NCBI RefSeq assembly: GCF_003390845.1
Contig: NZ_QMEK01000003.1
Location: forward strand, 248,001 to 312,000
Direction: 5' to 3'
Length of the DNA: 64,000 nucleotides
Source of the DNA: Tropicimonas sp. IMCC34043
GTDB taxonomy: Bacteria; Pseudomonadota; Alphaproteobacteria; Rhodobacterales; Rhodobacteraceae
Below the pieces are notes generated by a model, which saw nothing but the letters and a program-made list of their open reading frames with translations, was not told where the DNA came from and did no database searches. The position numbers were made by a program, and so were the translations under genes. This document shows, piece after piece, positions 43,896 through 52,603 of this stretch (its first letter is position 1; each line of letters opens with the position of its first letter).

Positions 43896-44547
43896 CCGGC
43901 GCCCCGATACCCGCCGGGCCGGCTGTCGTGCCGGCCGGCATACCGGCTACAACCGCCTGACGCTGCCCTACCGCAAGGGGCAGCGCTCGGATCGCGGTCG
44001 CTCACAGTCGCGCCCACTCCGCTCGACGACGGCCTGAAACAGGCGCGTCGCGCCAAGCCCCGAGTCGATTGGCAGCGGGACGGCGAAGTCTGTGCATCGC
44101 CGCAGATCGTGGATTTCAAGGTCCGTCACACGGCCAATGAACCGGGCGATTGCTTCAAGGCTGCTCTCAGCCCCGGCCGCGTCGTTCGCGGAAAATCCAA
44201 CGCGGTGTGGCACCAACAGACCGAGCGCGAAATGGGCCGGTCGGCGGTGGTGATGCAAATGGGACCGTTGGGGTTCACCCCCTCGGGCAGGGCCTCCTCG
44301 TCCCCCTCGGCGCGCCTCTGGCGCAACGCCGAAGGGCACCTCGCCGCCACAGAGTTACCACCGAGCATCGACAGGGGGACTCAAGGGGGCTGGGCAAAAT
44401 GCCCAGCCTGGCTAATGGATTAATAAAGCGTCTTTTTCTGGAAGCTATGGTGCCCCGCGTGTTCCACGGCCTGGCAGGTCCATTGTTGTGACACGGCCCT
44501 TGTTCCTGCTTGAATTCTCGCCAAGTTGCCCGGTACTCATTCTGCCG
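43896..44547. other. 652-base gap between DIT1 operon and cas3; hairpins, no clear gene
   Basis: A 7-base GC hairpin (GGCCGGC/GCCGGCC) at 43917-43936 just after the DIT1-like stop may end that operon, but lacks a U tract. Open frames on both strands in 43968-44423 have no recognisable family. A second strong hairpin, GGCTGGGCA/TGCCCAGCC with an AAA loop, lies at 44388-44408. The following AT-rich GGCTAATGGATTAATAAAGC may hold the cas3 promoter; I cannot assign its boxes. A GTG at 44488 in the cas3 frame would extend Cas3 by 20 residues. Confidence 0.4.
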
Positions 44548-47022
44548 ATGGAGAAAACAATATCTCGTTGGCCGGGCAAGAGTGTGCCGCCGGAAGGCGG
44601 TCCTGAGCATCCGGCGATCTATCACATGCTCGATGTCGCTGCGGTCGCCGAACGACTGATCGGTCCGTTCGGATGGGATGCGGCGTTGCAGGACGCGCTG
44701 GTCCTGCTGGCCGCTCTGCACGATCTGGGCAAGATCGGCGAAGGTTTTCGGGCAATGTTGCGCGAAGGGAAGGCGCAGCCCGCAGGTCTTCACTGGGAAG
44801 TTACCGAAGCCCTGTTGCGCCATCACGATACGCTGATCGCCGAGAGGCTCGGATCGACGGAGCGCTATCGGCTGAGGCTTTATGCGGCCACGGCCGGGCA
44901 TCACGGTCGCCCGCCAACGCGCGATGTGGTTCAGTTGCGCCGGTCCCTGGACAGCGCGGGGCAGGAGGCGCTGGCCGACAGCGCCAGGACAATCGAGGCG
45001 TTCCTTGCCCTCTGGCCGAAGGCATCCCTCGACGGGCTCGACCGCGAAGGCGCGCTTGCGCTGAGTTGGTGGCTTCCTGGTCTGGTCTCCGCCGCCGATT
45101 GGGTCGGCTCCAATTCGGCGTGGTTTCCGCCCTGTGATCCGACTGTCCCGATCGCGGCCTATCTGGAACGCGCCCGGGACAAGGCGGGCATGGCGGTCGA
45201 ATTGGCGGGTCTGACTGTCCCTGCGCCGAGCGGCGGAAAGCTGTTCGACTTCGACCTGCGCCCGATGCAGGCGGCCTGTGCGGAGGTGCCATTGCCCGAT
45301 GGCCCCATGCTGGCGGTCATCGAGGATGAAACCGGCGTCGGCAAGACCGAGGCCGCGCTGATCCTGGCGCAGCGGATGATGGCCGCGGGCAAGGGACGGG
45401 GGCTGTTCTTTGCCCTGCCCACCATGGCTACGGCAAATGCGATGTTTGCCCGCGCGCAAGAGGTCGTGTCGCGCATGTTCGCGGGGCCGCACAGCCTGGT
45501 GCTGGCACATGGCAGGGCACGCCTGTCCGGGCCGTTCCGCACGCTCGTGGCACGGCAGAGCGCGGGCACCGACGAACCGGTCTGTACCGAATGGCTTGCC
45601 GATAACCGCCGTCGGGCGCTGCTGGCCAATGTCGGGGTGGGGACGGTGGATCAGGCGTTGCTCTCGATCCTGCCGACCAAATTCTCGACATTGCGCCACT
45701 TCGGCCTGTCCTCGAAGATTCTGATCGTCGACGAGGTGCATGAACTGGGCGAGCCCTACATGGCGGCCGAGCTGGCGCAGCTTTTGCGGGCGCATCGCAT
45801 GGCCGGCGGTTCGGCGATCCTGCTGACGGCGACCTTGCCGATGGCGCAACGCAAGACGCTGCTTGCGGCCTACGATCACGCCGACAGCGGGGACGCGGCC
45901 TATCCGGCGCTGACGCTGAGCCATGGGCAGGTGCGGCGGGAGTTTCCACAACAAACAGGCGCGCGTGGGCAGGTATCGGTCCACCGCCTTCCGGATCCCG
46001 AGGCCGCCGTTGCCTTGCTGGCCGAACGGGCGGGGCAGGGGGCGGCCTGCCTTTGGGTGCGCAATGCCGTGGACGATGCAATTGCCGGGGTCGAGGCGCT
46101 GCGGGCCGCGGGGGTCGAGGCCGATCTGCTGCACGCCCGCTTTGCGCTCTGCGACCGGCTGCGGCACGAAACGGCGGCGCTGGAGCGCTTCGGCAAGGCG
46201 CGGGAGCCGCGTCCGGGGCGGGTGCTGGTGGCAACGCAGGTGGTGGAATCCTCGCTGGATCTCGATTTCGACGTGATGGTCTCCGATCTCGCGCCGATGG
46301 CCGCACTGATCCAGCGCGCCGGCCGGCTCTGGCGGCATATGGACCGGCGTCCGGCGGCGATGCGGGCGGTGCCAGCGCCGCTGCTGCATGTCGTGTCGCC
46401 GGACCCCGACAGCGTGGAGGACGACCAGTGGCTGCACCGGGTGCTGGACCGGGGCGCCTGGGTCTATCCGCTCGACCTGCAATGGCGCACGGCGCGGGTG
46501 CTGTTCGGGATCGGGCGGATCGAGGCGCCATCGGGGCTGCGCGCGCTGATCGAGGCGGTGCATGGCGCTGATGCCGAGCCGGTGCCCGGCCTGCTGGAAA
46601 CGGCAGAGACGGAACGGATCGGCAAGGGGTACTCGGCGGCCAACCAGGCGTGGCGCAATGTGGTGGTGCTGGAGGACGGATACCGAATGGGCGGCGCCGG
46701 GGCCGAGGACACGAAATACCCGACCCGGCTGGGCAGGCCGCAGAAGACGCTGCTGCTCGCCCGGTGGCAGGCGGGGCGGCTTGTGCCCCACGCCGGGACC
46801 GAGGCCGGGGACATGGAGGATGCCTGGCAGCTTTCCGAAGTGCAGGCCGCCGAACACCGGCTTCAGGGGCTGGACCTGCCGGATCAGGCGGCGCCCGAGG
46901 TGGCCGCGATGACGGCAGGCTGGCCGGAGTGGCGGCGGGCGGCGGTGCATGTCTGCCCGATGGCGCCGGACGGGGAGATTTGCACGGGGCTGCGCTACGA
47001 TCCCGAGAGGGGGCTGTTGTAA
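44548..47022 (+). CDS. cas3: Cas3 helicase-nuclease, type I-E
   Basis: 824 aa. Cas3 is recruited by target-bound Cascade and nicks, unwinds and degrades DNA. HD nuclease: H26 in YHMLDVAAVA, H58-D59 and K62 in LHDLGK, and further His in AGHHGRPP. Helicase: Walker A ETGVGKT with K266, DEVH at 395-398, LTATLP (motif III), QVVESSLDLDFD and QRAGRLWRH (motif VI). All catalytic residues I can check are present. ATG 44548 gives the I-E N terminus with WPGKS near residue 8; GTG 44488 is an alternative. A long antisense open frame here is only a GC-rich shadow. Confidence 0.95.
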   Translation: MEKTISRWPGKSVPPEGGPEHPAIYHMLDVAAVAERLIGPFGWDAALQDALVLLAALHDLGKIGEGFRAMLREGKAQPAGLHWEVTEALLRHHDTLIAERLGSTERYRLRLYAATAGHHGRPPTRDVVQLRRSLDSAGQEALADSARTIEAFLALWPKASLDGLDREGALALSWWLPGLVSAADWVGSNSAWFPPCDPTVPIAAYLERARDKAGMAVELAGLTVPAPSGGKLFDFDLRPMQAACAEVPLPDGPMLAVIEDETGVGKTEAALILAQRMMAAGKGRGLFFALPTMATANAMFARAQEVVSRMFAGPHSLVLAHGRARLSGPFRTLVARQSAGTDEPVCTEWLADNRRRALLANVGVGTVDQALLSILPTKFSTLRHFGLSSKILIVDEVHELGEPYMAAELAQLLRAHRMAGGSAILLTATLPMAQRKTLLAAYDHADSGDAAYPALTLSHGQVRREFPQQTGARGQVSVHRLPDPEAAVALLAERAGQGAACLWVRNAVDDAIAGVEALRAAGVEADLLHARFALCDRLRHETAALERFGKAREPRPGRVLVATQVVESSLDLDFDVMVSDLAPMAALIQRAGRLWRHMDRRPAAMRAVPAPLLHVVSPDPDSVEDDQWLHRVLDRGAWVYPLDLQWRTARVLFGIGRIEAPSGLRALIEAVHGADAEPVPGLLETAETERIGKGYSAANQAWRNVVVLEDGYRMGGAGAEDTKYPTRLGRPQKTLLLARWQAGRLVPHAGTEAGDMEDAWQLSEVQAAEHRLQGLDLPDQAAPEVAAMTAGWPEWRRAAVHVCPMAPDGEICTGLRYDPERGLL

Positions 47023-47057: not shown

Positions 47058-47140
47058 TTGTTTCCCGCGCCTGTGGGGATGGCCCGTGCTTTGTGGAAAG
47101 GGTTGCGAAAGACTGTTCCCCGCCAAGCGGGGATGATTAA
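47058..47140 (+). ncRNA. Degenerate mini-CRISPR between cas3 and cse1 (CreR/CreA-like guide RNA candidate)
   Basis: Two repeat-like units flank a short spacer. Unit 1 (47058-47086) matches the array repeat at 21 of 29 positions and keeps the 6-base stem through G-T wobbles. Unit 2 (47113-47140) begins CTGTTCCCCGC and has GCGGGGATGA as in the true repeat, with a 3-base loop instead of 4. The spacer (47087-47112, starting TGCTTTGTGGAAAG) is 26 bases, against 32 in the array. Cas6e could plausibly cut both units. The spacer start matches a site directly downstream with an AAG PAM. Known CreR/CreA RNAs have this repeat-spacer-repeat form and redirect Cascade to repress promoters in cas loci. Expression is inferred, not shown; its promoter is unclear and it may be co-transcribed with cas3. 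Confidence 0.7.
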
Positions 47141-47173
47141 GTGCTTGGTGGAAAGAGATGCGTAGTATCTCTT
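47139..47173 (+). promoter_or_regulatory. Predicted Cascade target with AAG PAM for the mini-CRISPR spacer
   Basis: AAG at 47139-47141 is followed by TGCTTGGTGGAAAG (47142-47155). It equals the mini-CRISPR spacer start at 13 of 14 positions; the single difference is position 6, which is flipped out and not read in type I-E guides. Beyond position 14 the match becomes patchy. Seed-only matching with a good PAM is what a repression site, as opposed to a cleavage target, should look like. A tandem duplication of the roughly 55-base unit would also create this similarity. Confidence 0.6.
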
Positions 47174-47186
47174 TCCACCTTTTTAT
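47148..47186 (+). terminator. Intrinsic terminator after the mini-CRISPR
   Basis: A perfect 12-base stem, GTGGAAAGAGAT (47148-47159) with ATCTCTTTCCAC (47167-47178), has a 7-base loop GCGTAGT and is followed by CTTTTTAT. It would end transcripts that come from cas3 or from the mini-CRISPR, so cse1 and the genes after it need their own promoter downstream. Confidence 0.85.
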
Positions 47187-47214
47187 AGACAGGCCTTGGC
47201 GCTGATGTTATCAA
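47186..47214 (+). promoter_or_regulatory. Candidate promoter for the mini-ORF and cse1 operon
   Basis: TAGACA at 47186-47191 (5 of 6 to TTGACA), a 17-base spacer and TATCAA at 47209-47214 (4 of 6 to TATAAT) lie directly after the terminator. The predicted Cascade site ends about 13 bases upstream, close enough to interfere with polymerase binding. The match is modest. Confidence 0.4.
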
Positions 47215-47218
47215 ATGA

Positions 47219-47252
47219 AAGCAGCGGACTCGGTTTCCCGAATCCGCTGCTT
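47219..47252. repeat. Stable hairpin in the cas3-cse1 intergenic RNA
   Basis: AAGCAGCGGA pairs with TCCGCTGCTT, and an inner TCGG pairs with CCGA around a TTTC loop. If transcription starts near 47221 this would form the 5' end of the RNA. No U tract follows, so it is not an obvious terminator on the plus strand. Confidence 0.55.
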
Positions 47253-47311
47253 GAAAGTACAAAGTTTAACGCAGCCGTTGGCGCGGCTTCATATGAGCGG
47301 AGGTTAAGAAG

Positions 47312-47332
47312 ATGCAGACCTTAAGAGTCTGA
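47312..47332 (+). CDS. Six-codon mini-ORF with strong ribosome binding site and rare codons (CreT-like candidate)
   Basis: ATG CAG ACC TTA AGA GTC TGA encodes MQTLRV. GGAGG at 47299-47303 lies 8 bases upstream, stronger than most sites in the window. It contains consecutive TTA and AGA, both codons that are scarce in the surrounding high-GC genes. Known CreT toxin RNAs are tiny ORFs with a strong site and rare Arg codons that trap a scarce tRNA. A regulatory leader peptide for cse1 is the other possibility. Confidence 0.4.
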   Translation: MQTLRV

Positions 47333-47339
47333 TCCTTGT

Positions 47340-47373
47340 CGCGCCCAGATTCATTTATGCGGAACTGGGCGCG
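47340..47373 (+). promoter_or_regulatory. Hairpin in the cse1 5' leader
   Basis: CGCGCCCAG (47340-47348) pairs with CTGGGCGCG (47365-47373), with a 16-base loop, beginning 7 bases after the mini-ORF stop and 38 bases before the cse1 start. Translation of the mini-ORF could influence its folding. No U tract follows. Confidence 0.45.
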
Positions 47374-47411
47374 CAAGGCAATAGAGCTAAATTTGCAAAA
47401 GGATATTGCCG

Positions 47412-48886
47412 GTGCCCCTTAATCTCATTTCCGATCCTTGGATTCCCGTCCTCACACGCGATGGCCACCGGCGCATTATCGCGCCTTGGGAAATCGCCGA
47501 CCCGGATCTTTTGCGTCCGGACTGGCCGCGCGCCGATCTCAACCTCGCCTGTCTTGAACTGCTGATCGGGTTGGTCTTTCTCGCCGACCCGCCGGCCCAT
47601 GACGAGGACTGGGAGGACCGGCAGGCGCCCGATCCTGCACGCCTGCGCGCCCGGCTGTCGCCGCTGGCGCCGGCCTTCGAGCTGACCGGCGAGGGGCCAC
47701 GCTTCCTGCAGGATCTGGCGCCGCTCGAGGGCGCGCCCAACCCGCCCGATATGCTGTTCATCGACAGCGCCGGCGGCAATACGGCGAAAAACAATGCCGA
47801 CCTGATGGTGCGCCGCGGCCGATACCCGGTGCTCGACCCGGCGATGGCGGCGATGGCGCTTTATACCTTCCAGGCCTTCGCACCGTCTGGCGGAGCCGGC
47901 AACCGCACTTCGATGCGGGGTGGCGGGCCGCTGGTGACCCTCGTGGCCCCGCAACAGGCGCTTTGGCCGATCGTCTGGGCGAACGTTCCCTACGGCCGGC
48001 CGGCCGGCACCGAGACCCTGCCCTGGATGCGCGCCACGGTGACCTCCGAAAAGGGCCAGCAGGTCTTTCCCGAACAAAGCCACCCGGCGGAGGCGTTCTT
48101 TGGTATGCCGCGCCGGCTGCGACTGGTGGAGACGGCGGGCGCGATCACCGGTGTGATCCAGCGGCCCTATGGCACCAATTATGCGGGCTGGGACCACCCG
48201 CTTTCGCCCTACTACCGGCAGAAGGTGACCGACGAGTGGCTGCCGCGTCACCCCCGGCCCGGGCTTTTCGGCTACCGCCACTGGCTGGGCATCGTCGCCG
48301 CGCTGCCGAACGAGGCAGAGGGCTTACGGCGGCGGGCCGGAATGGTGCGCGAGTGGGAAAATCGCCAGTCGAAGCTGCAGGTGCGGCTGATCGTCGGCGG
48401 CTGGGCGATGGACAACATGAAGCCCAGGGATTTCATCCTGTCCACGCCGCCATTCGTTGCCCTCGATGGCGAGGCGACGCTGATCCTGTCAGGGCTGGTC
48501 GAGGCCGCGGACCGCTTGTCGCTGGCGCTGCGCGGCGCGTTGAAGCCGGTGCTTGCCGAGGGCGAGGAGCGCGAGGCCGTTCGGGAGGCGTTTTATGCCG
48601 ACACCCAGGCACCGTTCGAGGCCCGCGTGGTGCAGTTGCAGAAGGGCGTGGCGGCGAGCGATGTCGCGCGGGGCTGGCTCGACGACATGCGGCAGGTCGC
48701 CATTCCCATTTTCGAGGGCCGAGCCCTGCCAGGGCTCGCCGACCGTGACCCAAAGGTGCAGCAGCAGATCGTTCAGGCCCATCGCGGGTTGCTTGCCGCC
48801 TTCGCCGGGCACGGGAAGGTGGGGGGCGACGCCTTTGAGGCGCTGCGCCTTACGCCGGCGCCGAAGCAGAAGGAGGAGGTTGCGGA

Positions 48887-48890
<4 letters not shown>
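47412..48890 (+). CDS. cse1: Cse1 (CasA/Cas8e), large subunit of type I-E Cascade
   Basis: 492 aa. Cse1 recognises the PAM and recruits Cas3. N terminus NLISDPWIPVLTRDG is the family hallmark, and the zinc-finger-free middle contains GGRYP-like VRRGRYPVLDPAMAAMALYTFQ, followed by SMRGGGPLVTLV and a C-terminal four-helix bundle. Start GTG 47412 was preferred to TTG 47406 because AAAGGA at 47398-47403 is then 8 bases away. It overlaps cse2 by 4 bases. It is separated from cas3 by the 389-base regulatory region described here. Confidence 0.93.
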
Positions 48891-52264
<3,374 letters not shown>

Positions 52265-52330: not shown

Positions 52331-52603
52331 CTGTTCCCCGCACGCGCGGGGATGAACCGAATGACCGCCTTCGCAGAAATCATGTCCGGTCCTGTTCCCC
52401 GCACGCGCGGGGATGAACCGAGGATCAGAGAGCTATGGCAAACTTCTACGTCCTGTTCCCCGCACGCGCGGGGATGAACCGTATTGGGAGCCGGCGGGCG
52501 ATATCTACCCCGACTGTTCCCCGCACGCGCGGGGATGAACCGTTCGGACATGAGCGCTTCAGGAAGGTGAAAACCTGTTCCCCGCACGCGCGGGGATGAA
52601 CCG
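52331..52603 (+). CRISPR. Type I-E CRISPR array, 5 repeats and 4 spacers
   Basis: Five identical 29-base repeats start at 52331, 52392, 52453, 52514 and 52575, a 61-base period with four 32-base spacers. Each repeat opens CTGTTCCCCGC, has a 6-base stem CCCCGC/GCGGGG around ACGC, and ends in the I-E handle ATGAACCG, so transcription is rightward. Spacers occupy 52360-52391, 52421-52452, 52482-52513 and 52543-52574. I noticed no match of a spacer elsewhere in the window. The last repeat is not degenerate, unlike most trailer ends, which suggests the array was trimmed. Confidence 0.98.

Follow-up and report, generated by a model that had tools for sequence, protein, structure and literature searches.

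Why should the gap between cas3 and cse1 in a type I-E CRISPR (clustered regularly interspaced short palindromic repeats) locus hold two degenerate repeats around a lone spacer, followed directly by a near copy of that spacer's start? The arrangement lies within a 64,000-nucleotide stretch of Tropicimonas sp. IMCC34043 (Rhodobacteraceae; contig NZ_QMEK01000003.1, positions 248,001 to 312,000), here called the window, and all features described below are on its + strand. The anatomy of the locus and its relatives is best explained by a CreTA-like unit of type I-E that sits in the Cascade operon leader, a reading that we consider probable. The guide of this unit would almost certainly steer the cell's own Cascade to the adjoining promoter.

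The first degenerate repeat, ψR1 (TTGTTTCCCGCGCCTGTGGGGATGGCCCG; 47058 to 47086), was recognized by alignment to the array repeat and keeps the 8-nt 5' handle ATGGCCCG. It is followed by a 26-nt guide, ψS or CreA guide (47087 to 47112), and by a second degenerate repeat, ψR2 (CTGTTCCCCGCCAAGCGGGGATGATTAAG; 47113 to 47141), which retains the Cas6e stem and has lost the 5'-handle part. This ψR1-guide-ψR2 unit at 47058 to 47141 confirms an initial sequence-only reading of the locus, which had proposed two repeat-like units flanking a 26-base spacer. The final three bases of ψR2 (47139 to 47141) form an AAG protospacer-adjacent motif (PAM) for the putative operator, a Cascade target at 47142 to 47162. 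The guide agrees with this target at 13 of 14 positions, with the sole mismatch at position 6, and matches partially to about position 21. The 13/14 match beside AAG, also proposed in that reading, held up, as none of 200 dinucleotide shuffles reached the guide/target score (positions 6 and 12 ignored) and TGCTTNGTGGAAAG occurs in the entire 4.6-Mb genome as guide and target only.

Relatives of cse1 from 397 genomes of the family and 80 loci from GTDB contigs were fetched, and their cas3-cse1 gaps were read (L numbers below are labels of the fetched relative loci). Gap lengths cluster at ∼40 to 80 and ∼280 to 420 bases, and a guide/target pair is present in 25 gaps, the window and 24 others. 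Over positions 1 to 11, identity between a guide and its own target in these 25 modules is 89%, compared with 28% across loci, and guides from different loci are mostly unrelated, agreeing on average at 3.1 of 11 bases (one pair is identical). The spacer start and the downstream AAG site, which had been suggested as a pair to follow in relatives, thus clearly co-vary: guides turn over and targets follow. The PAM is AAG in 21 of the 25 modules and ATG in 2. Anchor-only discovery of modules was noisy, and simple repeat patterns overlooked the right ψR2 in several loci.

Every sixth guide base is flipped out by Cascade. Mismatches between guide and target occur at position 6 in 18/25 modules, at position 12 in 15/25, and at position 18 in 14/25, in contrast to 13/250 at positions 1 to 5 and 7 to 11 (Fisher P ∼1e-14; the statistical tests assume independence among loci, an assumption that holds only in part). 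The proposal that the mismatch in the window falls at a base that type I-E guides do not read is therefore borne out by the relatives. The mismatch pattern is the every-sixth-base rule of Cascade recorded in evolution.

Pairing fades after ∼18 to 20 bases and falls to chance past about position 20. For Escherichia coli Cascade, an AAG PAM and as few as 5 seed bases suffice for binding, top affinity needs a match of at most 18 bp, and interference needs 18 to 25 bp (PMC5904413). Measured against these thresholds, the extent of pairing leads us to expect binding without cutting.

Guide length, counted as the bases that separate ψR1 from ψR2, is 20 to 21 nt in 11 modules, 26 nt in 2 (the window and L041), and 31 to 33 nt in 12. 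Array spacers here are 32 nt long, and the guide classes correspond to 32 minus 12, 6, or 0 (period-six Rayleigh test, P ∼4e-9, without tree correction); the guide of the window is of the minus 6 class. The cse1 tree requires at least 8 switches of length class; the window (26) differs from its sister L035 (32), for example, and L093 (21) differs from L087 (33). One Cas7 subunit spans six guide bases. We considered and rejected short guides as a device against Cas3 cutting, as type I-E complexes with guides 6 or 12 nt shorter work and still cleave slowly (PMC7296934). Partial pairing would be the likelier safeguard.

The ψR1 handle, ATG..CC, is invariant in 25/25 modules. The handle is lost from ψR2, which ends in the AAG or ATG PAM, and the PAM lies at most 11 bases from the Cas6e stem in 18/25. 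The same asymmetry, with the 5' handle kept in ψR1 and lost in ψR2, is known from CreA (PMC9458426). In 20/25 modules, ψR1 starts within the cas3 open reading frame (ORF) or overlaps its stop; in the window, it begins 35 bases past the cas3 stop codon. A dedicated creA promoter in the 3' end of cas3 was rejected, given a score before ψR1 of 6.9 versus 7.1 in module-free loci. With no promoter excess before ψR1, creA appears to be cotranscribed with cas3, and CreA would be cut by Cas6e out of the 3' end of the cas3 mRNA. The transcript would end at a predicted intrinsic terminator (47147 to 47184) that overlaps the target; the terminator itself had been recognized before, with a stem given as 12 bp, and has a 15-bp stem (47147 to 47179) followed by T5. 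Two further loci, L051 and L069, hold a ψR1-like remnant with the handle ATGGCCCG and no ψR2, target, or mini-ORF, and are apparently decayed modules.

What would the guide control? Downstream of the target, most modules carry a predicted promoter, TTGAC-N17/18, often with CAGCAT as the second hexamer. The candidate promoter of the window, PcreT (TAGACA, 17 nt, TATCAA; 47186 to 47214), is the top promoter match within 47142 to 47406. It is followed by a unit with the features of a CreT RNA: a 5' hairpin of 14 pairs near the expected transcription start (47219 to 47252; local fold z, −4.35), a second small hairpin predicted by folding (47271 to 47290), the Shine-Dalgarno sequence GGAGG (47299 to 47303), the mini-ORF ATG CAG ACC TTA AGA GTC TGA (47312 to 47332), which has two rare codons side by side, and a 12-bp 3' hairpin without a U-tract (47340 to 47373; z, −4.56). 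The entire predicted CreT RNA folds with a z of −5.4. The conserved elements at 47186 to 47373 lie beyond the span that the sequence-only reading covered. RNAalifold on a MAFFT alignment returned just 8 pairs, with hairpins misaligned, and per-locus hairpins with shuffles were used instead.

Among 22 long modules, 16 have a Shine-Dalgarno sequence, a start, and a stop within eight codons at the corresponding place, compared with 0.8 expected from shuffles. The codons ATA, TTA, and AGA make up 20 of the 94 internal mini-ORF codons but 2.8% of the triplets in the rest of these gaps (P = 2e-12), and they are far scarcer in cse1 than in the mini-ORFs. Across the ORFs of the window, TTA is the rarest sense codon (0.54 per 1,000) and AGA the fourth rarest; the two are adjacent in the mini-ORF. 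Characterized CreT likewise combines two adjacent rare codons in a mini-ORF with a stem-loop downstream of it (PMC8501985). Further marks of CreTA are present in the window at the sequence level: a degenerate repeat-guide-repeat, a PAM-flanked partial target at a predicted promoter, and handle asymmetry between ψR1 and ψR2. The guide/target design, the selection on it, and the CreT anatomy can thus be read directly from the sequences. Rfam gave no match at the guide/CreT unit, and blastn of the module DNA against plasmids gave none. A Paracoccus aestuarii plasmid fetched later (L151) carries the full unit, with the mini-ORF GTG CTA AAA ATA CCC TAG.

From this layout, we infer how the RNA might be processed, the promoter repressed, and growth poisoned, and how cse1 might be tied in. 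Cas6e would release CreA, a guide resembling a CRISPR RNA (crRNA), from the end of the cas3 transcript, where ψR1-ψS-ψR2 precedes the terminator. Cascade loaded with CreA would bind the AAG-flanked site abutting ψR2, pairing only partially and not far enough to license Cas3, and would shut the promoter at 47186 to 47214. Were Cascade lost or swamped, the promoter would fire and yield a hairpin-capped CreT RNA, whose adjacent TTA-AGA codons may sequester scarce tRNAs along with initiating ribosomes and so stop growth. Derepression would probably also raise cse1-cas6e.

Several observations weigh against this interpretation. The initial guide/target search skipped positions 6 and 12; when discovery was rerun with equal weights, the same register was recovered in 21/25 modules and another was favored in 4/25, so that some selection bias remains. 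The enrichment tests ignore shared ancestry. In the window, 44 nt separate the start of the target from that of the −35 element, which places this element beyond the 32-nt protospacer, and repression must therefore work via the upstream region of RNA polymerase or as a block. TAGACA/TATCAA is also only modest as a promoter. The mini-ORFs of L041, L043, L088, L104, and L110 hold none of the codons ATA, TTA, AGA, AGG, and CTA, and the mini-ORF or its start is lost in L087 and L050; judged from such loci, the guide/target pair can outlast the toxin half, which decays in places. Finally, a rare-codon leader could serve attenuation instead.

The strongest alternative is CreTA alone, with the toxin RNA as a unit of its own and cse1 transcribed from elsewhere. 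A separate transcript would suit L043, L079, L103, and L104, where a second promoter candidate precedes cse1 (150 to 281 nt from mini-ORF to cse1), and L061, L052, L085, and L055, where stems with T-rich ends lie downstream of the mini-ORF. It fits the window less well, as no second good promoter lies between terminator and cse1 there or in the other compact loci, and the 3' hairpin of the window has no U-tract. Since the terminator would also halt read-through from cas3, cse1-cas6e is probably transcribed from PcreT, and in the window these genes may depend on the same candidate promoter as CreT. We regard CreTA alone as somewhat unlikely. Before cse1, L079, L104, and L011 carry an inverted repeat resembling GTGTCA/TGACAC, a possible operator of some regulator.

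The converse alternative is CreR alone, in which the guide autoregulates cse1-cas6e only and the mini-ORF leader is incidental or an attenuator sensing charged rare tRNAs. The same two features of the window that tie cse1 to PcreT, its standing as the sole good promoter before cse1 and the strong upstream terminator that blocks cas3 read-through, would suit this alternative, and L042, L094, L149, and L113 have target and promoter immediately before cse1 in the same gap, without a mini-ORF. The window layout, as its sequence presents it, is of the CreT kind and distinct from these CreR-like layouts: a conserved mini-ORF unit (47219 to 47373) is attached, its anatomy equals that of characterized CreT, and the fixed placement and rare-codon enrichment of such units do not suit an incidental leader. 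The mini-ORF is also kept in L079, L103, and L104, where the separate promoter candidate precedes cse1. CreR alone is accordingly the more doubtful of the two. The CreR-type logic of the sequence-only reading survives in part: a Cascade guide with a PAM-flanked partial target is there, and the mini-ORF unit stands between the promoter and cse1.

Weighing these alternatives, we favor a hybrid of toxin leader and autoregulated Cascade operon, of which the toxin part is better supported than the autoregulation part. As a tentative model, somewhat less than evenly probable in its full form, one Cascade-repressed promoter would serve the Cascade operon and, ahead of it, a toxin leader that sequesters tRNAs, with the guide cut from the 3' end of the cas3 mRNA. 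Loss of cas3 transcription or of Cascade would be punished, and mild depletion would raise Cascade. The guide sequence would be free to change, with its length shifting only by the 6-nt steps of Cas7.

Two simpler explanations fare far worse. A plain 55-base tandem duplication with no guide function would account for units 1 and 2 lying 55 bases apart, each with a repeat and the same 14-mer, and such an event may well be the origin of the target. Guides nevertheless change between relatives and stay matched to their targets, with a 6-nt mismatch period, which rules out mere duplication as the full explanation and leaves it very improbable. The decayed end of a CRISPR array, with a self-match that arose by chance, is suggested by the degeneracy of both repeats and by the real arrays that occupy the cas3-cse1 gap in L032 and L033. 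It is just as improbable, as ψR1 and ψR2 are identical neither to one another nor to the array repeat, there is no array leader, ψR1 overlaps the cas3 stop in so many modules, and the preserved handle, PAM, guide length, and seed of 25 modules, like their co-variation, conflict with decay.

CreTA is known from type I-B archaea, type I-F Acinetobacter, and type I-E Citrobacter rodentium (PMC8501985, PMC9458426, PMC10097628, PMC12055562). The type I-B haloarchaeal systems of Haloarcula hispanica and Halobacterium hubeiense (PMC8501985, PMC9458426) share with the family described here a guide in degenerate repeats, the handle kept in ψR1 and lost in ψR2, a PAM-flanked partial target at a promoter, and a CreT with adjacent rare codons and a stem-loop. 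In contrast, the present family is type I-E and mainly alphaproteobacterial, with a long 5' hairpin on CreT, a target abutting ψR2, a PAM formed by the ψR2 end, a ψR1 that usually overlaps the cas3 stop, and 6-nt guide-length steps. The C. rodentium type I-E system (PMC12055562) also occupies the cas3-casA gap, has a PAM-side target overlapping an upstream promoter element, and has a toxin that needs translation (as predicted from sequence for the window toxin); CreA on the opposite strand, a 96-bp toxin ORF without rare codons, and an ATG PAM are its own features. Acinetobacter type I-F CreTA (PMC10097628) resembles the window in its two degenerate repeats, Shine-Dalgarno sequence and mini-ORF, and RNA-level toxicity (presumed for the window), and differs in divergent creA and creT, a 33-bp mini-ORF whose toxicity is not due to rare codons, and a noncanonical seed. 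CreR (Liu et al. 2023), as summarized in a review (PMC12737573), is likewise a crRNA-like RNA that represses a cas-operon promoter and, in that account, is generally uncoupled from a toxin gene, whereas the window has a CreT-like mini-ORF between promoter and cse1. We did not find a target abutting ψR2, a PAM derived from the ψR2 end, a guide gene overlapping cas3, or 6-nt length steps in the CreTA papers and the review cited here, a scope that leaves priority uncertain.

CreTA modules have been regarded as too poorly conserved for systematic discovery (PMC8501985, PMC10097628). Here, a 25-member family is readable from the cas3-cse1 gap via guide/target co-variation, and the every-sixth-base rule and 6-nt subunit step of Cascade are visible as evolutionary signatures in natural guides. 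The modules also suggest a route from array position to operator, with the CCG end of a repeat turned into an AAG PAM, and offer a reason for Cascade and cas3 to persist in a genome after cas1-cas2 deletion.

The remaining parts of the locus fit a type I-E system. An intact cas3 helicase-nuclease gene (44488 to 47022; NCBIfam cas3_core and cas3_HD over cutoff) precedes the unit, and cse1/cas8e (47412 to 48890, with a GTG start proposed from reading the sequence) and intact cse2, cas7e, cas5e, and cas6e (48887 to 51834) follow it. The sequence-only reading was right that cas1-cas2 is lost: an internal deletion joins cas1 residues 6 to 61 to cas2 residue 8 onward (51837 to 52252). Of the 20 module loci whose downstream sequence was long enough to judge, this loss is found in the window only, and a tie between module and cas1-cas2 loss was therefore rejected. 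The sole CRISPR array detected in the genome, with 5 identical repeats (CTGTTCCCCGCACGCGCGGGGATGAACCG), lies at 52331 to 52603.

Cascade genes also occur on plasmids. On Paracoccus versutus plasmid pTAV1 (L150, 3100 to 3410), a mini-array of two repeats around a 32-nt guide lies between a TTGACA promoter and casA; the fetched stretch has Cascade genes, no annotated cas3, cas1, or cas2, and no convincing PAM-flanked target. Acetobacter plasmids (L153 and L154) have casA to cas6e, and the stretches fetched from them carry no annotation for cas3 or cas1. The loci with full CRISPR arrays within the cas3-cse1 gap, L032 and L033, come from two Paracoccus metagenome-assembled genomes and represent a possible source of such units.
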